Positions 1,657 to 31,540 of a stretch of DNA of 46,801 bases are shown here, piece after piece. Each line of letters begins with the position of its first letter. Position 1 is the stretch's first letter. The stretch covers positions 216,152 to 262,952 of the forward strand of contig JABJQG010000020.1 of assembly GCA_018663505.1 (NCBI GenBank), read 5' to 3'. The notes beneath the pieces were generated by a model that was not told where the DNA came from, searched no databases, and was given only the letters and a program-made list of their open reading frames with translations. Both the position numbers and the translations under genes were made by a program. The DNA comes from Pseudobdellovibrionaceae bacterium. GTDB lineage: Bacteria > Bdellovibrionota > Bdellovibrionia > Bdellovibrionales > UBA1609.

Positions 1657-1677
1657 GTGGAACGTTTAAGGGAATTA

Positions 1678-4600
1678 ATGGGATTAAATAAAATTATTCT
1701 TTTTAATTTAAACTTGGCAAAGACAGTGAGAGCTGTATTTCTAAGCCTTATGCTGTTGCTCATCGCTTCTTGTAGCGGGGCCGGTAATGATGAAATTGCT
1801 AATAGCAATGGAAGCCTAGGTGTTACTTTAATTTCAGCTGCAGGAAATAAGCAGTTCGTAGATCCTGGTCAAAAATTTGAAAATCCAATTATTGTTAAAG
1901 CCGTAGATCCCCTGGGAAGACCTATTCAGGGTGTTGCCATTGAGTTTATTACTGATGGCACCAGTGGTGTATCCATTTTATCTCCCACAGGAATAACAGA
2001 TTCCACGGGAAGTATTGCAACCAATATTATCGCCCCTGGCGAGCTAAATAAAAGCTTTGTTATTTTTGCTCAAACCTCTGACGAAAGTTTTAAAGTTGCA
2101 TTTGAACTTAACACTTACCCAGAGCAACTCTTAATAATTTCTGATGGTCCCACCTATAACTATGAGACTGAAGCCATTGGCTCAACCAGAGCCTATGCAT
2201 TTGCCCTAAGTAATACAGGAAATGTTTCTGCAATAAGTATTCTTGGACAGGTGGATGACCTGCCATTTCACTTTATTGACGGTACTTTTCCAGGAACCGG
2301 TGGCACCTGTACATCCTCTCTGGCAGCGGGAGCCACTTGTTTAATTAACGTGGGTTTTTCGCCAACGTCAGTTGGATTTAAAACTGGTTCTTTTGAGGTG
2401 AATTACAAAGACGGCGATGTGAATCGTGTGGCTACTCGTTCTCTACAAGGCACAGGTGCCAATCTTGGTAAATTAGTTATTTCTGAAGACCCTATTTATG
2501 ATTTTGGTACCATATCCGTGGGTGGCAATGTTAGCCACACTTTTGTTGTGGAAAACACAGGAACTCTTGACGTCTCCTCTGTCACTCCAAATGCTTTTAC
2601 TGCAGATTTTTCTTATATGGGTGGCAGCTTCCCAGGCACTGGTGGTGATTGTGGAACAACCATTACACCTGGAGCTACTTGCAATATTGTTGTACAGTTT
2701 AACCCTATCGCCGCTGGTGTTCTTGTGGATACCATTCGTCTTTCTTATTTTAATGGGGCCGCTGGCGATAATTCGGAACGATCAATAAGTGGTATTGCTT
2801 CCACCCCTGCTTTATTAGAGCTTTCTGACAGCCCAATTTATGATTTCGGTACACAGGCTATAAGTTCAGTGTCTGAACATGTGTTCACTGTGACCAACAA
2901 TGGAAATAGTCCTGCAACAACTGTTGCTGGTGGAACTATTTTAGCTCCATACAGTTTTAAAGATGGACTCTATCCGGGCACTGGTGGGTCTTGTGGATCC
3001 ACTCTTAACAATGCTGCTAGTTGTACCGTCGTAGTCACTTATGCGCCTAGTACAGCTGTTTTACATCCAGGAACAGTAACCATAACTTATGATAATGGTG
3101 CTAGTGCTGATACAGCTTCTCGCAACGTTCAAGGTATGGGCGCTGATTTAGGTTTTTTAAGTATTTCACAGAGCCCACTATATAGTTTTGGAACACAACC
3201 TGTGGGCTCTAGTACAGACTTTACTTTTACAATAACTAACTCTGGAACAGGAACCGCATCTGCAGTTGCTGATGCAGGCGGCCTTTTAGCTCCCTTTGGT
3301 TATAAAGGAGGATCTTACCCTGGTACCGGTGGGAACTGTGGTGTTTCCTTAGCTCCAGCTGCTAACTGCAGTATTGTAGTTACTTATACTCCAACAGTTT
3401 CTGGATCAAATTTTGATACTATTCAAATTGATTATAATGATGGATCGCAAGTTAAAAATGCCTTAAGGGATATTACTGGCGCTGGTGTATCTGCTGCCAG
3501 CTTAGAAATTTCCAATGCTCCACTTTATAATTATGGAACACAAGCTACCGGTACAAATACGGATTTTATTTTTACAGTGACTAATATTGGAGGCGTTAGC
3601 GCATCGGGTATTAGCGAATCAGGTCTGGCCGCACCTTTTGCATTTAAAGGGGGTTCTTATCCAGGTACTGGTGGAAACTGTGGAGCTGGCTTAGTCAATG
3701 CCACAAATTGTACTTTAGTTATTACTTATTCTCCAACGGCTAATGGATTGCATACAGACCAAATTATTTTAGACTATAATGATGGGGCTACAGCTCAACA
3801 GACTGCTCGAAATATTCAAGGCACAGGCACAGATCAAGCGGTTATTAATATTTCTGAGGGACCCACTTTTAATTTTGGAACCCAAGCTCTAAGTTCTGTA
3901 AATGAGCAAACCTTTATTTTAGATAATTCCGGAGGATTAGATGCTACTTCTATTGTTGGTTCTGGCCTAGCTGCACCTTTCTCATTTAAGGGGGGCACTT
4001 ATCCTGGTACAGGTGGTAACTGTGGAGTGACTTTAACAGCCGGCTCTAACTGTAATATAATAGTCACCTATTCGCCAACATCCACAGGTTTACAAACAGA
4101 CAGTATTCAAATTGATTATGATAATGGGGCTTCGGCGCAGATTGCAACTCGAGATATTCAAGGTACAGGTGCTACTTCTGCCACACTATTAATATCTGAT
4201 GCTCCTACTTTTGACTTTGGAACTCAAGCTATCACCTCACAAACAGATCACACTTTTAGTATGAATAATACTGGTGGTGTGGACGCCACCGGAATTAATG
4301 GAATAGCATTAGCAGCTCCCTATAATTATAAAGGCGGATCTTATCCGGGTACCGGTGGTGACTGCGCAGCCACTTTAGTCCCTGCGGCTTCTTGTAATAT
4401 TGTGATCACATTTACGCCCTCAGTAACAGGCATTCAAAATGAAACTTTACAAGTTTCTTTTAATGATGGTTCGGCTCCACAAATAGCAACCAGAGATCTT
4501 ACTGGTACTGGTGCCAACCCAGCATTATTAATAATTTCTGATGGTCCTTCTTATGACTATGGTACTCAAGCTGTTAACTCCAGCGTAGATCATACTTTTA

Positions 4601-7600
4601 GTATTAATAACTCTGGTGGACTTTCTGCAACTAGCATTACCGATTTGTTGGGCTTAGCTGCACCTTTTAATTATAAAGGCGGCGGTTATCCAGGAACAGG
4701 TGGAACTTGTGGTGGGGCACTAGCCGCATCAGCCTCTTGTGCCATTGTTGTAACTTATAATCCTACCTTAGCTGGCACTCATACCGATACAATAGATATT
4801 CAATATTCTGATGGCATGAGTACTACAAATGCAACCCGTGACGTTCAGGGTATTGCCGATGCCTCAGCTGTACTCGCTATTTCTGATGGTCCTATTTTTG
4901 ATTATGGCACCAAGGCTCTTACTTCCAGTACAGATCAATCTTTCACTATTAATAACACAGGTGCCGTCACTGCTACTGCGATTAACGGTCTGGCACTTAC
5001 ACCCCCGTTTAGTTATAAAGGTGGTATTTATCCTGGAACTGGCGGCGATTGTGGTGCTACCCTTGCCGGTGCTGCCAATTGTTTAGTTGTGATTACTTAT
5101 AATCCAACGGCTACAGGCGCTCATAGTGACTCTTTCCAAATGGATTATGATGATGGTACTGGGCCAACCAATACACAAATCACCATCCAAGGTAATGGAG
5201 CTTCAGAGGCACTACTTACTGTTTCTGATGGACTTACTTATGATTACGGCACACAAGCCATGGGATCTAATGTAGATCATATCTTTACTATTAATAACAC
5301 TGGAGGCGTTCCTGCCACAGCCATAAGTGGGGTGGCGCTCACTGCTCCCTATGACTTTAAAGGTGGCGCATATCCTGGAACTGGTGGCAATTGTGGGGCC
5401 ACTCTAGCTGATGGAGCTAACTGTTCCGTAGTAGTGACTTATTCTCCAACTACTGTGGCCACTCACAACGAAACTTTAACTTTTGATTATAATGATGGAG
5501 TGGCTGCCCAACAAGCCACTCGTGATATGACAGGAGTTGGGGCCAATGCCGCATTTCTAGATATTTCAGATGGAGCTATTTTTGACTTTGGATCTCAAGC
5601 ATTAACATCCAATACGGATCATTCATTTACTATTACTAATACCGGTGGAATTTCAGCCTCTGCTATTGCTGATGGATTAGGTCTAGCTGCCCCTTTTCAT
5701 TGGAAAGGGGGAACTTTTCCTGGCACTGGCGGAGATTGTGGTGCTGGTTTAACAGCCTCTGCTACTTGTTCTATTGTGGTTACATACTCGCCAACAATTG
5801 CTGGCCCTCATAGTGATACAATAATTATTGATTATAATAATGGACTTATCTCTGACAATGCCACTCGAGACATTCAAGGTGCAGGTGCCACCACTGCAAA
5901 TATTACTATCTCTGACACTCCAACTTATGATTACGGAACACTATCTGTTGGCGGAAGCGCTGACCATATATTTACATTAAACAATACCGGTGGTGTTTTA
6001 GCCAGTTCACTGATTGCCTCGGGCCTTGCTGCTCCTTATGATTATAAAGATGGAGTGTATCCTGGAACCGGCGGTAACTGCGGTGGCAGTTTAAATTCTG
6101 GAGCCAGTTGTACTATTATTGTTTCCTACTCACCTTCCTCCACAGGAACTCATAACGATACATTAAATATTGATTATAATGATGGTGTGGCCGCTCAATT
6201 AAATTCCGTGGGAGTCACTGGCGTGAGTTCTTCTGCTGCCGTTCTCACAATTTCAGATGGAGCCACTTATGACTTTGGTAGCTTGGCTGTGGGAACAACA
6301 GCTGAATTTACATTTACTGTAAACAACACTGGCGGAACTAACGCAAATTCAATGGCCGGTGGTGGACTTGTGGCTCCTTTTATTTACAAGGGGGGTACTT
6401 ATCCTGGTACTGCAGGAACTTGTAGTACTGCTTTAGTACCGGCTGGTAACTGTACAATAGTAGTTACATATACTCCTACAACTTTAGGTTTAGATACTGA
6501 TACTGTTCAAATTGATTATAATGATGGTGTTACAACTCAGGCATCAATGAGAGATGTACAGGGTACTGGCTTAAGCGCCGCTGTTATAGATATTTCGGAT
6601 TCCCCTCTTTATGATTTTGGCAACATAGCTACAACTTCAACAGTAGAGCATACTTTTGTTTTAACCAATTCAGGACAAAGCTCAGCAACATCCATTGTGG
6701 TAACAGGACTTGCAGCACCTTATGATTTTAAAGGGGGAACTTACCCTGGAACGGGTGGAACTTGTGCGGCTTCGCTAGCACCTTCGGCTACCTGTGACAT
6801 TGTGGTCACTTTTACTCCAACAATCAATGGTGCCCAACTTGATTCACTGATTGTGGATTTCAACAATAGCGTTTCAGCACAACAGTCTACTCGTGATATT
6901 CAAGGTGCCGGGGCCGACCCAGCTACAATTACGATTTCTGATGGTCCTACGTATGATTACGGAGTTAGAGGCGTTGGGTCTTTTACCGATTTCTCTTTTA
7001 CTCTTTCAAACAGTGGTGGCGTTGCTGCCACAGCAATGGCTGATGCTGCGGGCTTACTGGCTCCTTATACTTTTAAAGGGGGAACATATCCTGGAACTGG
7101 TGGAGATTGTGGCGTTACACTTTCAGCATCTGGAACTTGTTCCGTTGTTGTCACTTATGCCCCTTCAGCCACTGGTGTTCACAATGATGTTATTGATATT
7201 AACTACAACGATGGTACTGGAGTTCAACAAGCAAATCGTGCCGTGGTGGGTACTGGTGCCAACTTAGCTTTTTTAACACTGTCTGATGGCCCAACATTTG
7301 ATTACGGCACTCAAGCCATAGGCGCAAACATTGATCATAGCTTTACTATTACCAATACTGGTGGTGTTTCGGCATCTTCCGTTTCTGGTGCGGGACTCGC
7401 TGTTCCTTACACTTTCAAAGGTGGAGGATACCCAGGAACCGGTGGGGATTGTGGTGCAAGCTTAGCTTCTACTGCCAGTTGCACAGTTGTAATTACTTAT
7501 TCACCCACAGCCACTGGAGTTCACACTGATACTATTAACATTAATTATAATGACGGCAGTATCACACAGTTAACTACTGGTGCTGTTACTGGTACTGGAG

Positions 7601-10600
7601 CAAATGTTGCTACACTTGAAATTTCTGATGCAGCTACTTTTGATTTTGGCGTCATTGCAAGTGGTGCCACAAGTGATCATTTATTTACAGTAGACAACAC
7701 TGGTGGCGTTTCTGCCACTTCTATGTCTGATGCCGGAGTGCTAGCTGCTCCATTTAGTTTTAAAGATGGCACTTACCCTGGTACTGGTGGTAACTGTGGA
7801 GCCAGCTTGAACAATGGAGCGCAGTGTACGATTGTTGTTACCTATGCTCCTGTTATCACGGGTTCTCACACAGATACCGTTCAAATAAATTTCAACAACG
7901 GAACTGGGAATGTTAATTCACAAAGAGGTCTTCAAGGTACAGCCACCACTCCGGCTGTCATCACAATCTCTGAAACAGATCCTTATGACTTTGGATCCAA
8001 TGCATTAGGATCCACTTCTGAACATTCATTTACCCTATCAAATACAGGTGGAATTCCTGCAACAACAATTTCTGGTACTGGCTTAGCTGCACCATTTAAT
8101 TGGAAAGACGGAAGCTTTCCTGGGACTGGTGGAACTTGCGGCGGAACTCTTAACAATGGTGCCAATTGTACGGTCATGATTACATATACACCTTCAACAG
8201 CAGCTCTGCATGCTGATACTTTTGATATCAATTATAACAACGGTGTCATCGCTCAAATAAGTTCCAGAGATATTCAAGGAACAGGAACAGCGGCAGCAAC
8301 TCTTGATATTTCTGATGCAGCTACTTACGACTTCGGTGATGTACCTGCGGGCGCCACAGGAGAACATACTTTTGTAGTTACCAATAACGGTTCTGTTTCT
8401 GCTTCATCCATTGCCGACGGCGGCGGATTAGCGGCACCCTACACATTTAAAGGCGGAACCTACCCTGGTACTGGCGGAACTTGTGGTGTTTCTTTAGCTG
8501 CTTCTGGAACTTGCGACATTGTGATTAACTATTCTCCAACGGGTACTGGATTAAATTCTGATATTATTGACATTAGTTACTTTGATGGCGCTTCTGCCAA
8601 CAATGCCCTTCGTAATGTTCAAGGTACAGGCGTTGATCCTGCTGTATTAGCAATTTCAAATGGTCCTTTATATGACTTTGCCTCAAAACCTGTGGGTTCT
8701 TCTACTGACGGAACACTTACAATTACAAACAATGGTGGATTTCAAGCCACTGGAATGGCAGGTTCTGGCTTAGCCGCTCCATATAGTTTTAAAGGTGGCG
8801 GTTACCCCGGAACAGGTGGAGATTGTGGTGCCTCTCTTGCGGCTACGGCTTCATGCACTGTTGTAGTTAACTATCAGCCATCAACTCTAGCCACTCACAA
8901 TGACGCCGTTCTCATTGATTATAATGACGGTGTGATTGTGCAACAAGAAACTAGAAATGTTGCTGGAGTTGGTGTTGCCGGTGCTGCATTAATTATTTCT
9001 GATGCGGCCTCATATGATTATGGGACAAAAGCAATAACTTCAGTTTCTGAACATACCTTTACTATTGATAACACAGGGTCTTCGCAAGCTACGTCTATGT
9101 CTGGTGTGGCATTAGTAGCACCATTTGCTTACAAGGGTGGAACCTATCCTGGAGCTGGTGGAACTTGTGCGGCTTCTCTTAACGCAAGTACACAGTGTAC
9201 TGTTTTTGTAACTTATACGCCTGTAGGAACAGGCATTCATACTGATACTTTATCATTAAATTATGATGATGGATCAGGAATGACCACTGCTGACCGTGAT
9301 ATTCAAGGGACAGGTGCAGCACCTGCGGTTATTGCCATTTCAGACGCAGCGACTTTTGATTTTGGCTCTATGACTGTTAATGGTTCTGTTGATCATACAT
9401 TTACATTAACGCATTCTGGTGGCGTACCTGCAACCAGCTTAGCTGTTTCTGGCTTAGCAGCCCCTTATGATTTTAAAGATGGATCTTACCCTGGTACTGG
9501 TGGCGATTGCGGAACTTCAATTTCTGTTTCTGCAACCTGTACTATTGTGGTTACATTTACTCCAACCATAACAGGAACTTTTAATGATAATATAGTTGTA
9601 GATTACAATGATGGTGCCGCCGTTGCACAAACCACTCGGGACATTACCGGTCAAGGTATAACACCGGCAATATTGGGAATCTCTAATGGCCCAACTTATG
9701 ATTATGGCACTCAGCCTATGGGCTCAAATAATGATTTTACTTATACAGTTTCAAATACTGGTGGCAGTAATGCCAATTCAATAACTGGCACTGGTTTACT
9801 CGCACCTTTTGATTTTAAAGACGGAAGTTACCCTGGTACTGGTGGGTCATGTGGAGCCACTCTTAACGCTTTAAGTAACTGCACCATTGTAGTCACCTAC
9901 TCTCCTATAGCTGCTGTTGTATCCAATGACATCATTGATATTAATTACGATGATGGTTTTGCTGCTCAAACAACTTCCCGGGCTATTCAAGGAACTGGAC
10001 AAAACGCAGCTCTACTTCAAATTTCTGAAACAGATCCTTACGACTATGGAACAAGAGCTACCACTTCAACTTTAGACCATACTTTTACTGTAACTAATAA
10101 TGGTGGGCTACCAGCTTCAAGCATTGCTGATGGCAGTGGTTTAGCCGCTCCATTTGATTGGAAAGATGGAACATTCCCAGGAACAGGTGGTGATTGTAGT
10201 TCTGGTTTATCAGCTTCTGCATCTTGTACTATTGTAGTTTCTTATTCGCCAACAGTTATTGGCCCTCATGGCGACACCATTTTAATTGATTATAATAATG
10301 GTTTAGGTACCACACAGGCCACTCGTGACATTCAAGGTTTAGGCGCAACTCCTGCCTTATTAGCTATTTCGGATGGTGCTACATATGACTTTGCAATTAA
10401 CGGAATCGGTTCTGTCTCTGAATATACTTTTACTATTTCTAATTCCGGTGGAATACCTGCTACAACAATGACAGACCCAGCAAGCTTAGCCGCTCCCTTT
10501 GCATTTAAAGGTGGGGCTTACCCAGGTACTGGTGGAAATTGTGGCGTTACACTGGCGGCTTCTGGAAGCTGTACTGTAGTTGTGACTTACTCACCTACAG

Positions 10601-13600
10601 CTGCTGTAATATCAAACGATATTATTGAAATTGATTATGACGATGGTGTTGGTGCTCAGCAAAGTACTCGCGCCGTCCAAGGTACGGGATCCAACTTAGC
10701 ATTTTTAACTGTCTCACATGGTCCTACTTTTGATTTTGGAACTAATGCCACAGCATCCACTTCGGATCATAATTTTACTGTGACAAATTCTGGCGGAGTT
10801 AGCGCAACAAGTATGATTGGTTCTGGGTTAGTGGCCCCATTTACCTTTAAAGATGGAACATACCCTGGCACTGGTGGCGATTGTGGCGTTTCACTGACCG
10901 CTTCTGGAAGCTGTACTGTTGTAGTTGCCTACTCCCCTTCTGCTGCAGGCATACACAATGATACTTTAACTATAGATTATGATGATGGCAGCGTTGTACA
11001 ACAAGCTTCTAGAAACATAACAGGTTCTGGTGCCGACCCAGCATTACTTACTATTTCTGACGGTGCTACATATGATTTTGGAGTTCTGGCTGTGAACTCA
11101 TCTTTAGATTACACATTTACAGTAGACAATATTGGTGGAACTCCAGCCTCAAGCTTAGTTGGTTTAGGATTAGCGGCTCCATTTACTTTTAAAGACGGAT
11201 CCTATCCTGGAACCGGTGGCTCCTGTGGTGCTAGTTTAAATAATGGAGCTCAATGCACAGTTGTTGTGACTTATGCACCAACCTTAACGGGTTCTCATAG
11301 CGACAGTGTTCAATTGGATTATAATGATGGTACCGCTGTCACAGCAAGTTCTAACCGTGCTGTACAAGGGGTGGCCACGAGCCCTGCCTCTATTTCTATT
11401 TCAGAAACTAACCCTTATGACTTCGGCTCTCGTGCACTAGGTTCTACAACCGAGTATTCTTTTACACTTTCTAATACTGGTGGAGTTACAGCCACCACAA
11501 TTTCAGGCACCGGATTAGCTGCTCCTTTTAATTTTAAAGATGGAGCTTACCCTGGTACAGGGGCAACATGTGGTCTGACTCTAAATAATGGATCTAATTG
11601 TACGGTCATTGTTACTTATACTCCATCAACTGCAGCCTTGCACACTGACACATTCAATATTAATTATGATGATGGAGCAGCAGCTCAAATCAGTACTAGA
11701 AATATTCAAGGAACAGGAGCCTCTTCTGCTTTCTTAGAAATTTCTGATGCCGCCACTTATGATTATGGCGATGTTCCATCTGGTGGATCCGCTGAATATA
11801 CTTTTGTAGTTACTAATACAGGCGCTGTTACAGCTACTTCTATTGCTGACGGAGTTGGTTTAGCGGTTCCTTTTAATTGGAAAGGTGGAACTTTTCCTGG
11901 TACGGGTGGGACTTGCGGTGCATCACTTGCCGCCTCTGGAACTTGTGATGTTGTGGTGACCTACTCACCCACTGCAACGGGCTTACAATCTGATGTTATT
12001 GACATCAGTTACAATAATGGATCCGTTACTGACAATGCACTTCGCGGCGTGCAGGGCACTGGTGTTACCCCGGCTACATTAGCAATTTCAGATGGACCTA
12101 CTTATGATTTTGCAAGTCGAGCTACTAGCTCAAGTACTGATGGCACACTGACTATTACAAATAATGGTGGCTTCCAAGCCTCCAGTATTTCTGGCTCCGG
12201 ATTAGCTGCACCTTATAGTTTTAAAGATGGTGGCTTCCCTGGTACTGGCGGCAATTGTGGAGCTACACTAGCCGCCACTGCTTCTTGTACCATTGTTGTG
12301 AATTATCAACCTTCAACAGTAGCTGTTCATAATGATACTGTTCTTGTGGATTACAATGATGGAATCACTGCCCAGCAAGTGACGAGAGATGTAACTGGAA
12401 CAGGTATTTTAGGTGCATCTTTAAGTATCTCAGATGCAGCTACTTACAATTTTGGAACACAAGCAATAGGTTCTGTTTCTGAACATATATTTACCGTTGA
12501 TAATACCGGTGGAGCCGCAGCCACATCCATATCAGGTGCAGCTCTTACTCCACCCTTTGTTTATAAAGGTGGAGCTTTTCCTGGAACTGGTGGGGACTGT
12601 GCTGGCACATTAAACTCAAGCTTACAGTGCACAATTGTTGTTACTTATTCTCCAGTGGGAGTTGGCAGTCATACAGATACACTCACTATAAATTATGATA
12701 ATGGTTCTGGTGCTGCTACTTCTGACAGAGCTATGGAAGGTGTTGGAGCCCTCCCTGCAACTATAGATATTACTGAAGCTCCTATTTTTAATTATGGAAC
12801 GGTTCCGGCAAATAGCTCCAACGATGCAACAATTCATTTAACCAATAATGGTGGCATTACCGCAAATTCTATAGTTGCAAGTGGATTAGCTGCTCCTTAC
12901 ACTTACAAAGATGGATCTTATCCTGGGACTGGTGGAGATTGCACAACGGGGTTAGCGGCATCAGCTTCATGTACCATTGTGGTCACTTTTGCTCCAATTA
13001 TCACTGGTACATTAACCGATACTTTAAATATTGACTTTAATAATGGGGCCGCTGCTCAACAGTCTACATTAGGCTTTACTTCTATAGTGAGTAACCCTGC
13101 TATTCTTTCAATTTCTGACTCCCCTGACTATGATTTTGGAACATATGCATTAGGTTCAGTGATTGACTACACTCTCACTGTATCCAACACCGGAGCTTCC
13201 AATGCAACTAGTGTAACAGGCTCAGGTTTATTAGCTCCATTTGCTTTTAAAGATGGAACTTACCCAGGTACTGGAGGCACTTGCACAGGCACGATTACCG
13301 CATCTGGTTCTTGTACTATTATTGTCACATATTCTCCATCATCTGCAGTTTTATCTGCTGACAGCATTGAGATTAATTATAATGATGGAGCCGCAGTTCA
13401 GCTGGCCACTCGTGATATTTCTGGTACCGGCGCAAGTGCTGCCGTACTTTCCATCTCTGAAACTAATCCTTATGATTATGGAACAAAAGCTATTGGATCT
13501 AATACGGATCACTCATTTACTATTACAAACATAGGAGATCTTTCTGCTTCAAGTATTGCCGATGCCGGTGGATTAGCTATTCCATTTAATTGGAAAGGTG

Positions 13601-16600
13601 GCACCTTCCCAGGTACTGGTGGTGATTGTGGCGCAGGGCTAGCACCAGCTGCTTTTTGCACAGTTATTGTTACCTTTTCACCTGTGGGTATTGGAACTGT
13701 GCCTGATTCTATTGTTATTAATTACAATGATGGGTTATCTGCACAACAATCCACACGAGATTTACAAGGTACTGGTGTTACGCCAGCCAACATAACAGTT
13801 TCCAACGGACCTACTTATGATTTTGGATCAAAAGGTATAGGTTCCGTTTCTGAATTTACATTAACTTTAACTAACGGTGGTGGAGCTGATGCCACATCTA
13901 TGGCTGACGCAGGAAGCTTAGCCGCACCCTTTGCTTTTAAAGGGGGAACTTATCCTGGAACAGCAGGAACATGTGGAGTCATTTTATCAGCTTCATCCAA
14001 CTGTTCCATTGTAATAACTTACTCTCCAATTGCTGCGGTACTTTCTAATGATACCCTTGATATTAATTATCATGATGGTGCTTCTGCACAAACAACTTCT
14101 CGTGCTGTGGCTGGTACTGGAGCGAACCTTGCTTTCTTAACAGTATCTAATGGCGCTATTTTTGATTATGGCACACAAGCTATTGCCTCTAATACCGATC
14201 AAATTTTTACCATTACAAATACGGGTGGCGTAGGCGCTACTGTAATTTCAGGTTCGGGATTAAGTGCTCCTTTTACTTTTAAAGATGGAACATTCCCTGG
14301 AACTGGTGGTGACTGTGGGGTTTCTTTAGCCTCCTTAGGAACCTGTACCGTTGTTGTCACATATTCACCAACAACGGCAGTGCTTTCTTCTGACCAACTG
14401 GATATTAATTTTAATGATGGAGATTCTGCCCAAGTTGTATCTAGAGATATTCAAGGTACAGGAGCCATTGCTGCACAACTTGTTATTTCAGATGCCACAA
14501 CATTTGATTATGGCACAGTGCCAACTTCAGGTATTTTAGACCATACTTTCACCGTGGATAATACTGGCGGAGTGCAAGCAACGAGTATTGCCGACGCTGG
14601 AGTTCTCGCTGCACCTTATACTTTTAAAGGTGGCACTTATCCAGGTATTGGCGGCGGTTGTGGAGTGAGCTTAGCAAGTGGAGCACAGTGTTCCATAGTT
14701 GTCACTTTTGCTCCCACATTAACTGGCCCGCAGTCTGACACCATTCAGTTAAATTATAATGATGGAGCCATAAGCACAAATACAATACGAGACATACAAG
14801 GTAACGGTGCAAACCCCGCTAATATCACAATTACCGAAGCGCCTATATATGATTTCGGAACACTTACTGTTGGCTCCTCAGTAGATGCCACTATAAACTT
14901 AACAAATAATGGCGGCGTAGCAGCCACCTCCCTTTCTGGATCTGGCCTTGCGGCCCCATATACATTTAAAGGTGGCACTTACCCAGGTACAGAGGGAACG
15001 TGTGGTGCAAGCTTAAATACTTCAACGGCCTGTACTATTGTGGTCAATTTTAATCCAACTAACCCTGGCACACTTACTGACACTCTCCTATTGGATTATA
15101 ATGACGGAGTCATTGCCCAGCAAAAAAATATCGGCTTTACATCTAATGTTACTAGTGCTGCCAACTTAAGTATTTCTAATGGTCCTAGTCTTGATTTTGG
15201 TACTCAGCCATTAAGTTCTGTGAATGATTTTACATTTACTATTACAAATGCTGGAAATACTGATGCAACCAGTGTTAGTGGTACAGGATTAGCGGCACCA
15301 TTTACATACAAAGATGGCACATACCCAGGTACTGGTGGTACATGTACCGGCACAGTCTCTCCAGGAACTTGTACTATTGTTATCACATTTATTCCTACTG
15401 TGGGTGGCCCATACTCAGATACTGTTGTCATTGACTACTTCAACGGAGTGAGTGCTCAATCGGCCTTAAGAGATGTTGCCGGTGAAGGTGCTGCCGCGGC
15501 TATTTTAAATATTTCAGAAACTGACCCTTTTGATTATGGCATTCAATCATTAACATCTAATACCGATTATACATTTATAGTTAGTAATGATGGCGGATTA
15601 TCCGCATCAAGTATTGCCGATGCTGCAGGTTTGGCAGCACCCTTCAACTGGAAAGATGGAACTTACCCTGGTACCGGCGGCACTTGTGGAGCTGGCTTAG
15701 GAATTGGTGCCACTTGTACCATTATTGTGACTTACACTCCAACATTAGTAGGTGCGCACACTGACACTATTGCTCTTGATTACAATGACGGATTAGTTGC
15801 ACAGCAAAGTACACGTGACATTCAAGGTTCTGGTGTGAGTGCTGCACTACTTAATATATCCGACGGTGCCACTTATGATTATGGTACTGTAGCTGTTAAT
15901 TCCTCTTCGGATTACACTTTTACTGTCTCAAATAATGGGGGTGCAACAGCCACATCTATGGCTGATGCCGCAGGCCTAGCTGTACCATTTAATTGGAAAG
16001 ATGGAGTTTACCCCGGCACAGGGGGAGACTGTGCGGCCTCGCTTTCTGCCGCTGGAAGCTGTACCATTGTGGTCACCTATAACCCAACAGGAACTGGTTT
16101 TCATCCAGATGCTATTGAAATTAATTATGACGATGGTGCCACAGCCCAAGTGACGACTCGTGATATTCAAGGTACAGGTTCAAATCTTGGTTTAATCACA
16201 ATCTCTGACACTCCTACTTTTGACTATGGAACAAAATCTATAGCTTCTAGCACGGACTACATCTTCACTATTACAAACACTGGTGGAGTGGGCATCACTG
16301 CTTTAGGTGGTACAGGATTGATTGCCCCATTTACTTTTAAAGGAAGTACTTATCCTGGCACAGGTGGTGATTGTGGAGCAACACTGGCTTCTTTAGGAAC
16401 TTGTACTGTTGTGGTTACCTATAGCCCAACAGGTGCAGCAATTCATAACGACACTTTGGATATCAACTATCATAATGGAGCTTCTCCTCAAACATCTTCA
16501 GTGGGTGTAACAGGCACTGGGGCAACAGCGGCGTTGTTAGTGATTTCAGACAGCGCCACTTATGATTATGGAACCATCGCAACTGGTGGTACGGCAGATC

Positions 16601-19600
16601 ATACTTTCACAGTGGATAATACTGGTGGAGTGGCAGCAACCCTATTAACTGACGGTGGTGGTTTAGCCGTTCCATTTAACTATAAAGATGGCACTTACCC
16701 TGGTACAGGTGGCAGTTGTGGAGCCACTTTAAATAATGGAGCTCAATGTACAATCATTGTGAGTTATAGTCCAATTATTGGTGGATCAGATTCAGATACT
16801 ATACTGTTGGATTATCACAACGGTACAAGCTCACAACAGGCAAACCGAGGGGTACAAGGTACTGCCACAGCTCCTGCAGTTATAGATATTTCAGAAACTG
16901 ACCCTTATGACTATGGTTTACACGCGATCGCTTCTTCCACAGATTATACTTTTACTTTAAGTAACTCTGGTGGAGTTCAATCCACATCCATGGCAGGTTA
17001 TGGTTTAGCGGCCCCCTTTGAATTTAAAGGGGGAACTTATCCCGGAACTGGTGGCGATTGTGCATTAACATTAAATAATGGCAGTAACTGTAGCGTTGTC
17101 ATTACTTATACTCCATCTACTGGGGTTCTACATCCTGACACTTTTAATATTGACTACAATGATGGGGCTGCGGCTCAAACTTCTTCCCGTGACATTCAAG
17201 GTACGGGGACATCTACTGCTATATTAACAATAACTGAAATTGATCCCTACGACTATGGAGATGTTCCCTCTGCGGGATCTTCAGATTATACATTTACTAT
17301 CACTAACACCGGGCCAATAACTGCAAGTGCCATTGCTGGTGGTGGCTTAGCTGCACCTTGGACATATAAAGGGGGCTCTTTTCCAGGTACTGGAGGTAAT
17401 TGTACTACATCACTCGCCGCTTCTGGAACTTGTACAACAGTTGTTACTTTTAGTCCTACTGTTACAGGTCCATCAACAGATACCATTGATATCAGTTATA
17501 ACAACGGAGCTATCCTAGTAAATTCCACAAGAGTTGTTCAAGGTAATGGAGTTACCGCAGCACTGCTCACTCTTTCTCACAGTCCTATTTATGATTTTTC
17601 TCAAAAAGCTCAAGGGTCAATAAGTGAAGCCACTCTCACCCTTGAAAACACGGGAGGCTTTGAAGCCTCTGGGGTTGCAGGTTCTGGTTTAGCAGACCAA
17701 TTTAGTTTTAAAGATGGCGCTTACCCTGGAACAACAGGAACATGCGGAGCTACTTTAGCTGTTAGTACAACTTGTACCATTATAATCACCTATACTCCAG
17801 ACACATTGGCTGTACACAATGACCAAGTTATCATTGATTACAATGATGGAGTATCCGCGAAACAAGTCACACGAAATGCTACAGGAGAAGGTATTACTGG
17901 AGCATTTATTCAGATTTCTAATGCCAGTATTTTTAACTATGGTACTAAAGCTGTAAATTCCGTTTCAGAACATTCATTCACTATCGATAACACAGGCTCA
18001 ACCACTGCAACCACTATTTCAGGCGCTGCCTTAAGCTTACCTTTTAAATATAAAGGGGGAGCATTTCCAGGGGTTGGTGGTGACTGTAGTGCTTCACTAA
18101 ATGCTTTAACTAGTTGTAGTGTAGTTGTGGAGTACGCCCCAACAGCTCTTGGTTTAGCTAGTGATACATTTACGATTAACTATAATAATGGGGCCGCAGC
18201 AGCTGTTGCAAATCGTAACATTGAAGGCATTGGGGCACCTGCCGCCACTCTTGCTATTACTGAAGCTCCCACTTATGACTATGGCACCCTCACTGTAAAC
18301 AGTATGACTAACGCCACAGTAAATGTCACCAATACTGGTGGTGTACCAGCAACTTTTATTGTGGGTTCCGGACTGATTGCTCCCTATAATTATGAGGGTG
18401 GCGCTTACCCTGGAACTACTGGGACTTGTGGAGCGGGTCTTGCCTCTTCAGATTCTTGTACTATTGTTATAACTTTTTCTCCAACAACGACAGGAACTCT
18501 TACAAGTACTTTAGATTTAGATTATAATGATGGGGCGGCAGCTCAACAATCTTCAGTAGGTTTTACTGCTGTTTCCAACTCCCCAGCCCTGTTAAATATT
18601 TCTGATGGAGTCACATATGATTTTGCTTCCCAACCAATTGGTTCCACCAATGAATATACATTTACAGTGACCAATGATGGTTCTTCTCAAGCCACAGCAA
18701 TGGATGGAGTTGGCTTAGTTGCCCCTTACGAATACAAAGATAGTTCTTACCCTGGTACTGGCGGAACATGTGGCTTATCACTGGCTCCAACAGTTTCCTG
18801 TACGATAATTGTCACCTTCGCACCTGGTTCCGCTGGAACATTTAATGATAATATTGAAATTGATTATGATGACGGAGTCACTACACAAACATCTCTTCGA
18901 GCAGTTACTGGAATTGGAGCCTCGGCTGGCGTTATCACTATTTCAGATGGACCAATATATGATTATGGCACCTTTGCGACCACATCCTTCAATGATTATA
19001 GTTTAACTCTTACAAATGCTGGGGATTTAAATGCAAGTAGCATCACTGGTTCTGGATTGGTTGCTCCATTTAGTTTTAAAGATGGAAGCTACCCTGGCAC
19101 CGGTGGAAATTGCGGAGCCACTTTAGTGGGCGGTGGTGGAACATGTACAATTATTGTTACATACAATCCAACATCAGTTGCCCCTCATAGTGACTCTATT
19201 GTTATAGATTATAATGATGGCGTTTCGCCAAAACAAACAACTCGAGATGTACAAGGTATTGGTACAAACCCAGCAAGCCTTACAATTTCAGAAACCGATC
19301 CCTATGATTATGGAATAACAGGGGCCGGTGTTCCCCTAGAGCATACCTTTACAATTGATAATACCGGTGGTGTTGCAGCAACAAGTTTCTCAGGTTCAGG
19401 GCTATCTGCTCCCTTTGATTGGAAAGATGGTACCTTCCCAGGTACTGGAGGCGACTGTACTGCCACACTGGCGGCCAGTGCACAATGTAGTATTGTGGTT
19501 TCTTTTGCTCCAGGCAGTACCGGCGCATATGCGGACACCATTCAAATTGGTTTTAATGACGGTACACCAACTCCAAAGTCAGCCACTCGCGATGTGTCTG

Positions 19601-22600
19601 GAGATGGAGCTAACTTAGCTATAATTTCTGTGTCTGATGGTCCGTCTTATGATTATGGACAAGAAGCCGTTGGTGCCAATGTAGATTTCACTTTCACTTT
19701 AACAAACACTGGTGATGTTCCTGCAACATCTATGAATGGACAAGGATTATTGGCTCCTTTCACTTATTCTGGCGGTGGATACCCTGGCACAGGTGGAACT
19801 TGTGCTGTTACACTTGCTCCCTCTGCATCGTGTACCATTGTTGTCCGATTTTCACCAAATGGTACCGGTACAGTTTCTGATGACATTGATATTGTTTACA
19901 ACAACGGTCAAGCCTCTGTAAGCTCCCAGAGGACGGTAGATGGTGAAGGTATAACCCCTGCTAGTTTGTCTATAGCTGTAGTAAATACAGATTCTTTTAA
20001 CTGGGGCACACGTGCTGTTGGTTCTAGTACAAATATGACTTACGAAATTACAAATGATGGCGACGCCGATGCCACTAATATTGCTGCCACTGCTTTTTTA
20101 AATGAATTTTCTTTTCAAGATGGAACTTACCCAGGAACTGGTGGCGACTGTGGAGCAACATTAGCCGGCGGCTCTTCTACTTGTACTGTAGTTGTCAGTT
20201 GGGACCCCACAAGTACTGGCAGTCAACTTTCTACCTTACGTTTAGACTATGAAAATGGTACCCATAATACCACTCCAACAGCATTAACTGTTAATCTTCA
20301 AGTTGGTGTTCAGGGTTTTGCTAACCCGGCAGCTCTTCTGCAAGCCACTCCTACTTCTCACGATTTTGGGCTAGTGGTTGTTGGCAATACTGTGGAAACA
20401 AATATTACTCTCACAAATAATGGCGGAGTAGATGCTGACAACATGGCTGGCTCCGGCTTAGTGACTCCTTTTCGTTTTAAAGGCGGAACATACCCTGGGA
20501 ATGGCGGTACTTGTGGAGCCACTTTAGCTCCAACTCTGTCATGTGTTGTGGTAGCAAGTTATACTCCCACAGCTGCAGGAGCTGATGCTGGTACTATGAG
20601 TATCACATACAACGATGGTGCTGCCGGACAAGCTGCAACTGTGAATTTTACTGCCACAGCCACTGATGCTGCTGTACTTCTTTTATCAGGTTTAGACCCT
20701 CATGATTTCGGAGTACGTGGTACAAATACAATCACTGTTACTTCATTCACCATATCTAATGCTGGTGGAGCCGATGCCAGCACAGTGAGTGGCGCTGTTC
20801 TTACTGCCCCATTTGCCTGGACTGGTGGAAGTTACCCAGGAACTGGCGGAAACTGTGGCACAGATATATTACAAGGAAATAGTTGCCAGATTGAAATTGA
20901 ATATTCACCAACCACCTCAGGAGCTCATTCTGATACTATTACCATTGATTATAACAATGGTTCAACTTCGGATCAGGTCACAACTGATCTCCTAGCTTCA
21001 GCTTCCAGTCTTGCTTATATTGAAGTATCAAATAGTCCGTCATACTATTATGGATCTAAGATTTTAAGCACAGATACAGATTATGCTTTTACTGTGACCA
21101 ATAATGGGGGAGTAAACGCCACCTCTTTAGATGGTACTGGCCTTGCTGCACCTTTTACTTTTAAAGGCGGTGCCTTCCCAGGTATTGGTGGCAGTTGTAC
21201 AACCGTATTAACACCCTCTAATAATTGCACAGTTGTAGTAACATTTACTCCAACTGGAACAGGGTTGTTTACTGATAACTTAAGTATTGATTTTCACGAT
21301 GGTGCTGTAAGTAATTCTGTACTCAGACAAGTTCGTGGAACAGGTGCCGATTCTGCTGTACTGGATTTTGTTGATGGAGCTGTACATGACTACGGTGCAA
21401 GAGTAACTACTGGCACTTACCAATACATCCTTCAACTTACAAATTCAGGAGGAACAGTAGCCACTGGTATTAATATTACAAATAACATCATAGCCCCGTT
21501 TACTTTCCTCGGCGGAACTTATCCCGGCACAGGTGGTAATTGCTCCACATCTTTAGCGCAAGGTGGAACCTGTAACATGTATGTGGTCTACTCCCCTACC
21601 ACAGTGGGCGCACATTCAGACACATATACTCTTGAGTATAACGATGGTGCTATACCTCAGCAAAGCAGTATCATCATTCAAGGAACTGGAAGCGCTACCA
21701 CTGCTGTGCTTGAAATTTCTGATGGTCCAACCACTTATGATTTTGGCGGTATCATTTCTGGCAATGGTACTATTACTCATGATTTTACAGTGACCAACAC
21801 TGGTGGTTCCATAGTTGATTACACAACAATAGTAGATAGCAGTACCATAACATCGCCATTTGTTTGGGAAGGCGGAACATTTCCTGGAACGGCTTCCAAT
21901 TGTGGTAATGGTCCCTTGGATACTCCTGCAGGAAGTCACATTGCTCCCGGAGGCACCTGTTCACTTAGAATTTCTTATACACCAACCTCAGTTGGAATAC
22001 ATAACAGTACAGTTTCCTTAAATTACTTTGATGGACTAGCCTCTCAAACTACCACTCGCCCAATAACTGGCCAAGGTGAGAGCCCAGCATTACTAAATAT
22101 TAGCAACGGTCCCACTCACAACTATGGTAGTCAATTATTAGGAACTAACAATGATTTCACATTTACTGTGACCAATGATGGGGACGCACAAGCAACAAGT
22201 ATGACTGATGGCACAGGATTATCCGCACCTTATAGTTTTAAAAGTGGAGGCTATCCAGGTACTGGTGGCACATGTGTTGGAGTTCTCAACGGTGGTGCCT
22301 CCTGTACAATCATTGTAACGTATACACCAGCAACGGCTGCCACCCATAATGATACTGTTCTCATTGATTACGATGATGGTAATGGCGGACAAACATCTTC
22401 ACGTGCTCTTACAGGAGTTGGCCTTGATGCCGCCGTATTAAATATTACAAATGTAAGTACAAACGACTACGGGACAGTGGCACGAAACTCTACTTCAGAA
22501 CTATCGTTTACTGTAACCAATAGTGGTGGGCTGGATGCCACAAGTGTCGCTGATGGCTCAGGTTTAGCGCTGCCATATAATTATAAAGGTGGCTCTTACC

Positions 22601-25600
22601 CAGGCACTGGTGGAGATTGCAGCACAACCATTTCTGCTTCGGCTTCCTGTACTCTTGTTGTTACTTACAACCCAACAGTTAATAACACAGATTCGGATAG
22701 TGTATTGATTGACTATAACGATGGTAATGGCTCTCAAACAGCTTCGCACCTAATACAAGGCATTGCTGTTGACCCTGCTTCTGTTACTATTTCAGAAGGC
22801 AACCCCTATGACTATGGAAATGTGGCATTAGATTCATCTACAAATAAAATCTTTACTTTAACCAATGTGGGTGGCGTTCCAGCAACAGGCTTATCAGTAT
22901 CTGGCCTCCTGGCTCCTTATGATTTTACTGGTGGCTCTTACCCTGGTTCCGGTGGAGATTGCGGTGCAAGCCTTAATGGGTCAAGCTCCACTTGTACTAT
23001 TGAGGTCACACTAAACCCTATTTCTGGTGGATTTAAAAGCGATACCATTGTTGTTGACTACAATGATGGAGTTAGCTCTCAACAAACAACACGAGCCATA
23101 GAGGGCACATCAATTCTAGTGGCAGTACTTGATATTTCTGATGGTGCCACATTTGATTATAGTTCAAACACAGTGAACGTTCCTGTGAATAAAACATTTA
23201 CTGTAACAAATAACGGTGGTCTTACTGCCTCTGGAATTGCTGACGGCCTTGGATTAGGAGCCCCCTATACTTGGGAGGGTGGAACATTCCCTGGAACAAG
23301 TGGAGATTGCGGAACAAGTCTCACTTCAACTAGTACCTGTACTGTTACTGTTACCTATACTCCAACAACAGTTGCGGTTCATAATGATTCTATTTTAATT
23401 GATTACAACAATAGTTTAACAGCTCAAACAACAACAAGAGCCGTTACTGGATCAGGTGTTAGCTTAGCTAATATTAGCATTTCAGATGCCGCCACTTACA
23501 ATTATGGATTAGTGGCCGCTAACACAAGTAATGACCATGCGTTTACATTAACAAATAACGGTGCATCACAAGCTTCAGCTATTACCGATGGCATTGGACT
23601 AACAGCCCCTTATGACTGGAAAGATGGTCTCTTCCCAGGAACTGGCGGCGATTGCGGTGCTACATTAAACGGAGGAAACTCAACATGTACTGTAGTTGTT
23701 ACGTATAATCCAACAGCCAATGGCACACATAACGACACCATCTTAATTGATTACAATGATGGGAATTCTGCTCAAGTGGCCAGTCGTGCTGTTCAAGGTG
23801 TTGCTGCTAATCCTGCCGTGTTAGATATTTCTGAAAACCCGAATTATGATTATGGTGACGTAGTCACACTCACAACAAAAGATAAATCCTTTGTCTTAAC
23901 AAATAATGGTGGTGTTAATGCCACAAGCATTGCTGATGACTTGGGCTTAGCTGCACCATTTACTTGGAAAAATGGCACCTTCCCAGGCACTGGTGGTGAT
24001 TGTGGAACCGGTCCAGTTGTTCCCTTGGGTACATGTACCATAGTTGTAACATACTCACCTACTGCGGCAGGACCTCAGTCCGATATCATCTCTGTTAATT
24101 ATCACAACGGAACGAGTACAGTTGTAACTACCAGAGATATTTTAGGCCAGGGTGTTAGCTTAGGTGTGCTGACTATTTCCGAGTCGGAACCATTTGATTA
24201 TGGAGCCGTTGCTACAAACTCAATCACAGATCACACTTTTATTATTACTAATATTGGTACTGGAACAGCCTCCAGTATTTCTGACGGTCTCACTTTAGCT
24301 GCTCCTTTTTCTTGGAAAGGTGGAGGAGCATATCCAGGTGCTGGAGGAGATTGCAACACATCTCTTGCTGGTGGTAACGCTACATGTACTATAGTTGTCA
24401 CTTACTCACCTACTGCCGATGGCTCTCACTCTAATACGATTACAGTGGATTATAATGACGGCGTTAGTGCTCAACAAGTCACTCGTGGCTTACAAGGTAC
24501 GGCATCAGCACCAGCTAGCATATCAATTTCTGATGGAGCTACTTTTGACTTCGGTAGCGTCGCTACATCTACAGTTGTAGAAAAAACATTTACACTTACA
24601 AACAACGGGGATGTTTTAGGTACAACAATGGGTGATGGTTTTGGATTATCTGTTCCTTTTGACTGGAAAAATGGTACCTACCCTGGAACCGATGGAGACT
24701 GTGGACTCACACTAGCTCCATTGGGAACATGTAGCATTGTGGTTACTTATTCACCCACAATTGTAACAACCAGTAATGATACTATCATTGTTAACTATGA
24801 TAATGGAGTGACCGAAGTCGCTGCAACACGCGCTGTTTCTGGAACAGGCGTAAATCCTGCTGTCCTCACCATTTCTGATGGTGCTACTTATAATTTTGGT
24901 AACCAAACCTTGGGAGTCTCTACAGACCACACATTCACAGTTACAAATTCAGGTGGAGATGATGCCACTAGCTTAGCTGGTTCCGGTCTAGCTGCCCCAT
25001 TTACTTGGAAGGATGGCACCTACCCTGGAACTGCGGGAACATGTGACACAGACCTTACTATTGCAGAGTCTACTTGTACTATTGTAGTCACCTACGATCC
25101 AACTGTAGCCATCCTAAGTAATGATCAAATCGTACTGGATTTTAATGATGGAACAGCCTCTCAACAAGCAACAAGAAATATATCAGGCACAGGTTTAGAG
25201 CCCGCTTTATTAACAATTTCAGATGGCCCTTCTTATGACTATGGCACACAAATAAACGGATCCGCAACAGACAAAACTTTTACCATTACTAATAATGGAG
25301 ATGCACCAGCTACGGCTGTTGCAGATGGCTTAGGCTTGGCTCTTCCATACAACTGGAAAGATGGAACCTACCCTGGTACAGGAGGAAATTGTGGAATAGC
25401 TCCTGTGGCTGCTTCGGGAACATGTACTATTGTAGTTACTTACTCACCCACATCTGTAGCCACAAGCCCTGACACTATTATCGTAGACTACAATGACGGA
25501 GTCATTGCTCAACAAACTTCAGTGGCCATCACTGGAACTTCTGTATCCCCTGCTCTTTTAGCAATATCGGGAACTGACTCTATTGATTATGGTTCAACAA

Positions 25601-28214: not shown

Positions 28215-29546
28215 ATGAAAAAAATTATCGCTTTAGTGGTTGTGGTTACCCTTTGCATTTTTGCTTTTCTTAAGCTGGATAAGTCTAAAAAATTAGTACA
28301 AAAGGCGTCACCCAATACATTTTATAGTGGAGCCTTTGTCTATAAATTAAAACCTTTAGAAAAATTGGGTCTTGCTGCTAGAATTTCCAAACAAGATGTG
28401 ACTTACTCAGAATTAAATTCTAAATCTCAGTTCCTCCAAGATTTAATGCTTACTAAATATGAACTTCTTACTGCAGCAGTGAAACATAAAGTGAATGCTA
28501 TCACTAAAACGTCTAAAAAACCCAACGTCATTTTCTACATGAACAAACCTGAGGTGGTTTCTAATATTAATTTTGAAGAAATGGAATTCCAATTAAGCTT
28601 CTCAGAAGAACGTCCAAAAAATGCTTTAATTAAAATTAATGATACAAGATATGGTCGAAAAGAGCTTGCTCTTAATCAAGTACGTTATTCGCAAGTAGGT
28701 ACTGATATTTTTGAAGAAAGGCTAAGAATTCTTTCTGATATTTATACTAAAACTTTATTATTAAAAATTTCAAAAACAAATAACACAACTATCCAAGGTT
28801 TTATCAATAAAAATATCTTAAAAAAACCATTACAAATCAGTGACGATGAAATTAATCATTTTGCGTCTTCCAAAGGTATTGACCTCAAAGACAAAAACCC
28901 AAATTTTAAAAACAGACTGCGAAATATTATAAAAGAACAAAAAACCAAAACAGCTATTGAAAGCTATATCACAGCAAACCACGCCAATGAGGTAGGTCAT
29001 ATTTTTTTTAACCCGCCGTCTTTTCAAGTTCCACTTTTTGCAAATAAAGCCATCATAGAGTCACAAAATGGAACATCTTCTCTTCCAACATATATGGTCT
29101 TTACTAACCTAACTTGTAATAGTTGTGGAGAGCTCGCTGATCACTTAGACGAATTAAGAAAGCTCTATAAGAATAAAATCCGAATTGGATTTGTAAATAA
29201 TTTTTCTGACAATGATTGGAGAAATCAATTAGCTGCTGAAGCCTCTTTTTGCTTAAATCTTCAAAGCCATGATGCCTTTTGGGATTTCTTTAAAAAAATA
29301 GCAAAAACTAAAGATAATTTAACAGAAGCATCCATCATGGCAACGGCAAAATCTACTGGCGTAAACTACGACAATTTTAATAAGTGTTTTGTGACTCAAA
29401 CATATAAAAAAGATGTAAATAAACAAAAAAAATACGCTTTAGATTTAGGTATAAAAATTTCCCCTACAGTGATCTTGGGTACAAAGGTTCTCACAGGAAG
29501 TATCAGTAAAAAGAAACTTGTAAACTCAATTAAGGCAAATCTCTAA
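28215..29546 (+). CDS. Membrane-anchored DsbA-like thiol oxidoreductase with SurA-like region, 443 aa
   Basis: The ATG has a strong AGGAGA site (28204-28209). Residues 1-20 are a signal anchor, so the rest is periplasmic. Residues about 60-265 are helical and charged, with an IND..YGRKEL segment and an ISDDEINHF segment resembling SurA/PpiC-type chaperone N-domains. Residues about 285-443 form a DsbA-like thioredoxin fold (Thioredoxin_4 type) with active-site CNSC at 301-304, a second Cys pair (ASFCLN, FNKCF) common in this family, and a cis-Pro loop (ISPTV) followed by GTKVLTG. The gene starts 101 bases after the giant lipoprotein, whose repeats hold about 140 Cys, so a role as its disulfide-forming foldase is a reasonable inference. 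A close paralogue lies at 35895-37121. Oxidase versus isomerase activity cannot be decided from sequence. Confidence 0.88.
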   Translation: MKKIIALVVVVTLCIFAFLKLDKSKKLVQKASPNTFYSGAFVYKLKPLEKLGLAARISKQDVTYSELNSKSQFLQDLMLTKYELLTAAVKHKVNAITKTSKKPNVIFYMNKPEVVSNINFEEMEFQLSFSEERPKNALIKINDTRYGRKELALNQVRYSQVGTDIFEERLRILSDIYTKTLLLKISKTNNTTIQGFINKNILKKPLQISDDEINHFASSKGIDLKDKNPNFKNRLRNIIKEQKTKTAIESYITANHANEVGHIFFNPPSFQVPLFANKAIIESQNGTSSLPTYMVFTNLTCNSCGELADHLDELRKLYKNKIRIGFVNNFSDNDWRNQLAAEASFCLNLQSHDAFWDFFKKIAKTKDNLTEASIMATAKSTGVNYDNFNKCFVTQTYKKDVNKQKKYALDLGIKISPTVILGTKVLTGSISKKKLVNSIKANL

Positions 29547-30772: not shown

Positions 30773-31540
30773 ATGAAAATACACAATGAATTATTAGCTC
30801 TCAGAGAAAAAGAAAAACAATTATCATCTTTAATTTTAGAAAAACTACAGATCATGGAAGAACAACGTTTGTATTTAAAATTGGGTTATTCCTCTTTATT
30901 TGATTACCTAGTCCGAGGCTTAGGTTATTCTGAAACCATGGCTTATCAAAGACAAAGCTGCCTACGACTCAGCTTTGAACTTCCTGAAATAAAAGAAAAA
31001 TTGGATATAGGTACCTTAACTCATAGTAATATTTCCCTAGCCTATAAAGCCATAAAAAATCAACCTGTAAATAAAAAGCGAGAAATATTAGAGACCATAG
31101 AAAACAAAACATTCCGTGAAGCTAAAAAAATCTTAGCCCCCATGGCTCCTCCCATTAAAGTGAAACAACAGTTTTTCCAGAACAAGGTGCTTCTAAAGAT
31201 GGAACTTACACATGAAGAGCACAAAAAACTCCATCAGCTTAAATCTTTAAAATTTCATAAACACAATTTAGAATCTTTATTTATGAATCTAGTGGATCAA
31301 GAACTCAAAAAATATACTAAAACAGATTACAAAATTTCAAAGTCTAAAAACCCACGTTATATATCCGTAAAACTAAGAAATAATATTCTCAAAAAGGCAA
31401 AGTATCAATGCCAACACAAAGGTTGTGAGGAGACTCACTATTTACAAATTGACCATATCAAACCAGTGAGACATGGCGGTAAAGCTAATCCAAATAATCT
31501 TCAAGTGCTTTGCTCGGGGCATAACAGGGGTAAAGGTTAA
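30773..31540 (+). CDS. HNH endonuclease family protein, 255 aa
   Basis: The ATG follows GAGG at 30760-30763. Residues about 35-110 form a helical region with GYSSLFDYLVRGLGYSE, reminiscent of the DUF222-like N-terminal part of HNH proteins that occur in many copies in Bdellovibrio-type genomes (family knowledge). The C-terminal 60 residues are a classical HNH nuclease module: CQHKGC metal ligands, the catalytic DH in QIDHIKPVRHGG, the middle Asn in NNLQVLC, and the final His in GHNRGKG. The protein stops only six residues after this last motif, at the very edge of the domain. Such genes are often mobile or repeated; here a duplicated non-coding unit lies directly upstream. Substrate and biological role are unknown. 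Confidence 0.85.
   Translation: MKIHNELLALREKEKQLSSLILEKLQIMEEQRLYLKLGYSSLFDYLVRGLGYSETMAYQRQSCLRLSFELPEIKEKLDIGTLTHSNISLAYKAIKNQPVNKKREILETIENKTFREAKKILAPMAPPIKVKQQFFQNKVLLKMELTHEEHKKLHQLKSLKFHKHNLESLFMNLVDQELKKYTKTDYKISKSKNPRYISVKLRNNILKKAKYQCQHKGCEETHYLQIDHIKPVRHGGKANPNNLQVLCSGHNRGKG

Follow-up and report, generated by a model that had tools for sequence, protein, structure and literature searches.

A giant predicted bacterial lipoprotein of 70 Ig-like domains, the middle of which probably grew by ten-domain tandem duplication

We analysed a 46,801-nucleotide stretch of DNA (the window) from a Pseudobdellovibrionaceae bacterium of the Bdellovibrionales, an order of predators, and found in it a giant gene. 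Its product is probably a rod of 70 Ig-like (ASH/HYDIN-type) domains, lipid-anchored and stapled by disulfides, the middle of which would have grown by tandem duplication of ten-domain modules through homologous recombination. The gene lies on contig C49 of a 3.78-Mb draft genome; its parts, together with two neighbouring genes, are listed in Table 1 (an ATG at 1678, beginning MGLNKIIL..., is as plausible a start as the GTG). The count of 70 units was obtained by motif spacing and, independently, as 70 NF012200 matches, which have E values up to 4.5e-7 and 36 of which are above the curated cut-off; all 70 such matches in the source genome fall in this one open reading frame (ORF). PF22544 (HYDIN_VesB_CFA65-like Ig) matches the four quarters of the protein with E values from 8.5e-28 to 9e-104.

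Table 1. The giant gene, the blocks within its repeat array and the DsbA-like genes of the window
Feature	Position	Strand	Details
Giant ORF	1657..28113	+	8,818 codons from first GTG; without internal stop
Signal peptide and lipobox (LLLIAS-C), then weak Big_1-like domain	1678..2124	+	Sequence; Pfam
Array of 70 choice-of-anchor-D / HYDIN-VesB Ig-like units	2125..26235	+	About 114 aa each; two Cys in the same columns
Block E, units 12-16	5896..7608	+	Types 6-10, unit 14 doubtful; 1,713 bases; tree, leave-one-out
Block A, units 17-26	7609..11040	+	Types 1-10; 3,432 bases; identity, tree, leave-one-out, unit lengths
Block B, units 27-36	11041..14472	+	Types 1-10; 3,432 bases; 65% aa identity to Block A
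Block C, units 37-42	14473..16530	+	Types 1, 6, 7, 8, 9, 10; types 2-5 absent; tree, leave-one-out
Block D, firm part, units 43-48	16531..18585	+	Types 1-6; identity, tree, leave-one-out
Block D, tail, units 49-52	18586..19965	+	Unit 49 probably type 7; units 50-52 not clearly types 8-10
C-terminal region	26236..28110	+	GLUG-type beta-helix part, LamG-like part (by eye), Cys-rich end
DsbA-like / Thioredoxin_4 protein	28215..29546	+	First gene downstream of the giant gene
Second DsbA-like protein	35895..37121	+	33% identical to the first

The original prediction described a higher-order repeat of ten distinguishable domain types within the array, and this was partly confirmed. Over units 17-52 the mean identity is 0.548 between units ten apart, 0.543 at an offset of 16 and 0.539 at an offset of 26, compared with about 0.47 at other offsets; these peaks are the ones expected from three ten-unit blocks with a six-unit block between the second and the third. 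Over all 70 units the offset-10 signal has a z score of 7.2, which none of 5,000 shuffles of the unit order reached (99.9% of such shuffles stay below z 4.5 at any offset), and the longest DNA self-match in the array, between copies 3,432 nt apart, is 5,633 nt long and 66% identical. As in other higher-order repeats, units one period apart are more alike than adjacent units (mean identity of adjacent units, 0.45), and none of the 41 units for which a type had been claimed finds its best match in an adjacent unit. A maximum-likelihood tree of all 70 units (IQ-TREE) brings units of the same type together, the ten type labels changing 12 times across it (the minimum is 9 and the shuffled mean 30.6; 0 of 200 shuffles were as low); types 2, 4 and 5 form clades with bootstrap values of 98-100%, and the values are 88/96 for type 3, 99/97 for units 15/25/35 (type 9) and 98/89 for units 12/32/38/48 (type 6). 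Leave-one-out assignment recovered the claimed type for 36 of the 41 units (the failures being 14, 23, 50, 51 and 52), and for 30 of the 41 the single best match among all 70 units falls in the claimed type.

The common ten-type order had been claimed for units 17-26, 27-36 and 43-52; it holds for the first two blocks and for units 43-48, less strongly for unit 49 and not for units 50-52. The unit-length pattern is the same at all ten positions of blocks A and B (115 114 115 114 114 114 114 115 115 114). We accept units 43-49, which makes seven of the ten units of the third full block firm, with unit 49 the weaker case (assignment gives type 7, although unit 59 is its closest match); for units 50, 51 and 52, which do not cluster with types 8-10, the claimed types rank second, sixth and seventh, yet units 50 and 51 are of the length expected (115). 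The claimed type ranks second also for unit 14 (type 8) and unit 23 (type 7), and in the tree the assignments of units 13, 14, 39, 41 and 49-52 are weak. Two of the three predicted block lengths were reproduced (3,432 bases each), the third being 3,435 bases with the present anchors, compared with 3,429 predicted, a value that depends on where the boundary is set. Tree and leave-one-out assignment agree with the prediction that units 37-42 form a cycle lacking four consecutive types, and the five-type partial cycle proposed for units 12-16 stands except for the doubtful unit 14, with the same 1,713 bases for units 12-16 and 38-42. Periodicity is confined to units 12-49, units 1-11 and 53-70 being without a period. 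Tandem Repeats Finder returned no rows for the array, because it handles periods of no more than 500 and the divergence between units is too great.

Amino-acid identity is 65% between blocks A and B, 54% between A and D and 56% between B and D, compared with 47% between unrelated units. The proportion of synonymous differences between blocks (0.68-0.69) equals that between unrelated units (0.68), indicating that these sites are saturated and that any age is a lower bound only. The view that the duplications happened long ago is compatible with this, but the synonymous divergence on which it had been based gives no date, and we discarded dating by synonymous change for this reason. That the period is an artefact of assembly or a by-product of composition is extremely improbable: arrays of this kind do break assemblies, and contigs of three related genomes (G004, G045 and G052) end inside theirs, but blocks A and B have diverged at 34% of their DNA positions, with saturated synonymous sites, far beyond assembly or read error, the gene is a single open frame over its whole length, and the period is lost when the unit order is shuffled. 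A horizontal origin, considered on account of the higher G+C of the array, was also rejected (G+C at codon position 3 is 0.25, as in neighbouring genes, and is raised only at positions 1 and 2, to 0.49 and 0.56, which reflects amino-acid make-up).

The explanation that we favour is repeated tandem duplication of a ten-domain module in the middle of the array, plus one four-unit deletion, which would have produced the gap (types 2-5) in block C. The probable route is homologous recombination between units of the same type: recombination needs DNA similarity, which is present between same-type units and lacking between different types, so that it would join same-type units and add or remove whole cycles in frame and in register. 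Such a higher-order repeat may be self-propagating, with its youngest copies in the centre, and changes in the middle of the array would leave both the lipid anchor and the C-terminal region intact. Growth by blocks of about ten domains, and not by single domains, had been proposed from the start; it is well supported for units 12-49 and leaves units 1-11 and 53-70 unexplained. The super-repeat and its register are seen directly in the window, and in relatives this process is met at a more recent stage, with much higher identity between copies.

Domains of the NF012200 type are present in 20 of the 47 genomes of the family and, at E values up to 1e-10, in 52 of the 143 genomes of the class, and giant genes of this type are found in four families of the Bdellovibrionia, in most cases with a seven-unit super-repeat. 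On the basis of N-terminus, C-terminus and unit collinearity we set three ortholog groups: Group I (the source genome and G004), Group II (G045, G047, G019 and G126, of which the last belongs to family f5 and the other three to family f1, as does the source genome) and Group III (G052, G098 and G129). The nearest orthologue is that of G004: its N-terminus together with the first unit is 57% identical, its units are collinear from 1 to about 20, and it has two downstream genes in common with the window. It is split by contig ends in the array (L045, L044; contigs C2, C4) with its central part missing from the assembly, and lengths taken from draft genomes are therefore lower bounds. Units 17 and 18 of G004 resemble types 1 and 2, unit 18 being about equally close to window units 18 and 28.

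Much more similar copies are found in Group II. The 10,123-aa ORF of G126 has 82 units, with signals at offsets 7, 14, 21, 28 and 35 (z from 21.8 to 4.3) and an identity profile that rises from about 0.5 at both ends to as much as 0.99 in the centre; the 7,385-aa ORF of G047 contains two seven-unit blocks, with units up to 95-100% identical in a patchy profile. In G047 and G045 the seven-unit super-repeat covers approximately units 20-36, in tracts of 94-100% nucleotide identity with abrupt drops (at 171-nt resolution). The central copies in G126 and G047 have 96-100% amino-acid identity, fading outwards, and a homogeneous core is clear in these two arrays, whereas similarity in the window peaks in units 17-36, with none at the ends, at only 65% identity. 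Blocks of G045 and G047 are 0.88 alike within a genome and 0.69-0.72 between the two genomes, which would mean that the copies evolve in concert or were re-duplicated independently. In G052 and G129 identity at offset 7 reaches 0.7-0.77, and a second giant gene of G045 and that of G024 show offsets 3, 7 and 10. Judged by these identities, block duplication appears to be old in the window and recent in relatives. Seven-unit super-repeats with near-identical central copies were noted, in different families, at L050 (G045), L048/L049 (G047) and L070/L071 (G126).

A one-to-one, in-phase correspondence links the seven types of G126 to those of G045/G047 (best bijection, p 0.0003 and 0.0017), and another links those of G129 to those of G052. 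Between the G126/G045/G047 types and the G129/G052 types no correspondence was found, indicating that period 7 is very ancient or else had two or more separate origins; neither set matches the ten types of the window, where the attempted matching gave no coherent run and was abandoned. A seven-unit or three-unit period hidden within the ten-unit cycle was also discarded, the cyclic-offset comparison showing only lower similarity between neighbours. A search of viral contigs found no matches.

Domain repeats generally grow by duplication of several domains at once, often in mid-array, as was found by autocorrelation of domain similarity (PMC1553488); nebulin, which grows in sevens, shares with the giant gene this joint copying of several domains, but such cases come mainly from eukaryotes, and here a period of ten units is seen in a giant lipoprotein of a bacterium. 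The A-band of titin has recurring multi-domain Ig/FnIII super-repeats, duplicated at the super-repeat level, of which the central ones are most alike and look youngest (PMC10665226); titin is a eukaryotic intracellular muscle protein built of other domain families, with a period tied to the thick filament, and we claim no homology. Centromere satellites likewise grow by copying whole multi-unit runs. Multi-domain duplication is therefore already known from titin and nebulin, and what appears to be new is its occurrence in a giant bacterial lipoprotein family. Periscope Proteins are also bacterial tandem-domain rods that project a terminal functional domain and whose length is set by repeat number (PMC8201768), but their neighbouring repeats are near-identical, whereas neighbours in the giant protein are about 45% identical and likeness returns only every ten units. 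The units themselves are choice-of-anchor-D (NF012200) / PF22544 members by HMM, differing from other such proteins in the number of units in one gene and in the higher-order arrangement of types. A literature search that left preprints aside found no paper combining 'choice-of-anchor D' with Bdellovibrio. If our reading is correct, super-repeat growth in the style of titin, nebulin and satellites takes place in bacteria, without introns or meiosis, and related genomes present it at different stages: saturated in the window, at about 60-77% identity in G052 and G129, and at up to 99-100% in G126 and G047. Long-read sequencing could then measure how fast blocks duplicate, convert and decay.

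It had also been suggested that the retained type order points to a function, which does not follow, because block copying alone preserves order without selection. Amino-acid identity between blocks A and B varies by type from 0.53 to 0.76 (chi-square p 0.007) with synonymous sites saturated in all types, and cyclically adjacent types are the least alike, below what random order gives (z -3.3, p 0.0006); together, unequal constraint and neighbour dissimilarity lend modest support to the idea that domain identity or diversity matters. Selection for the order itself, with the ten positions binding different things or the module setting a structural register (compare the titin C-zone), would agree with both observations, and with the finding that the seven-unit cycles of G126 and G045/G047 consist of the same seven types in the same order. 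The C-zone of titin is thought to match the thick filament. We nevertheless regard selected order as unlikely: inheritance through block copying predicts an identical order in any case, the period varies across the class (10 in the window, 7 in others), and units 50-52 have lost their identity and block C is without types 2-5 while the frame is still open.

Alternatively, selection may act on the diversity of neighbours and not on type identity, given that single-domain duplication would set identical Ig domains side by side and lead to misfolding. Divergence of neighbouring homologous domains, probably to avoid misfolding, is already known (PMC4660218), and the neighbour dissimilarity of the giant gene has the same sign in five of six array stretches of relatives. 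The effect is small, however, and does not appear across all 70 units of the window, and the sign is opposite in G126 (z +1.1), the most homogeneous array; we therefore hold this alternative to be possible but less than probable. Periscope Proteins break the rule of neighbour diversity (PMC8201768), whereas the giant lipoprotein family keeps it and grows by blocks. Finally, super-repeats of certain lengths recur (at least two groups with non-matching types have 7, the window has 10 and a further group 10/7/3), and this could stem from a physical register of the rod. A superhelical turn or a lateral lattice contact, for instance, would permit blocks of some lengths and exclude others. We consider this decidedly improbable; if true, it would mean that block lengths are constrained in a surface filament of predator-lineage bacteria.

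Returning to the favoured reading of the product as a stapled rod, an AlphaFold2 model of units 17-19 (mean pLDDT 95) consists of ASH/PapD-like domains, and its best matches among solved structures are ciliary central-apparatus proteins, CEP192, the VesB Ig domain and HYDIN. Single domains match the VesB Ig domain with Z 12.2 (rmsd 2.0, 101 residues aligned), the PapD-like domain of CEP192 with Z 11.7 (2.2) and HYDIN with Z 11.1 (2.1), so that the HMM match and the predicted ASH/PapD-like beta-sandwich fold both place the units in the choice-of-anchor-D/PF22544 class. Exactly two cysteines occur in every one of the 70 units, always in the same pair of alignment columns, which accounts for 140 of the 147 cysteines of the protein, and the same two are found in 528 of 528 units from 15 array stretches in 10 genomes (window included), a count made with a unit finder that was trained on units with both cysteines and may favour such units. 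The signal peptide, as in bacterial lipoproteins, ends in a lipobox cysteine, by our reading of the sequence by eye, and a lipobox is seen also in the recovered N-termini of G004, G045, G047, G019, G052, G126 and G098. We predict that the product is likely a lipid-anchored surface rod stapled by 70 disulfides. With an assumed 4 nm per domain its 70 domains give a length of about a quarter of a micrometre, far longer than the periplasm is wide, which makes the putative location on the cell surface the more likely one.

The DsbA-like protein encoded immediately downstream would, on the evidence of sequence and gene position, form these disulfides. Homologues of this gene directly follow the giant genes of G052 and G098 (three genera with the window), with MotA- or TPR-like genes nearby as in the window; none was detected beside the giant genes of G045 and G047 in the stretches fetched. 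The two paralogous DsbA-like genes sit between the giant gene and motB/motA. The prediction that emerges is of a quarter-micrometre disulfide-stapled rod on an uncultured Bdellovibrionales cell, tied to a neighbouring DsbA-like gene.

The two ends of the protein are less well defined. The N-terminus is 49% identical to that of G004, and its Big_1-like domain has an E value of 1e-4 against Pfam Big_1, under the curated cut-off. The C-terminal region shares 38% identity with the corresponding end of the G004 orthologue; its GLUG part matches Glug with E 1.2e-5 and gave weak matches to IgA1 proteases in a sequence search, and its AlphaFold2 model (mean pLDDT 50.7, from two sequences) is confident only for approximately residues 80-275 and the end. 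From its position and the GLUG part, our guess is that this region may be a distal binding tip. Elsewhere in the source genome (G000; contig C60, 55467-58121), a 1,701-aa ORF contains about 8 or 9 repeats like the last 90 residues of the giant protein. On the contig of the giant gene, a 353-aa ORF (43741-44802) has a weak match to a LapA-type retention module (E 5e-4, under the cut-off), and a 255-aa protein (30773-31540) has an HNH endonuclease domain and a weak IscB match under the cut-off.
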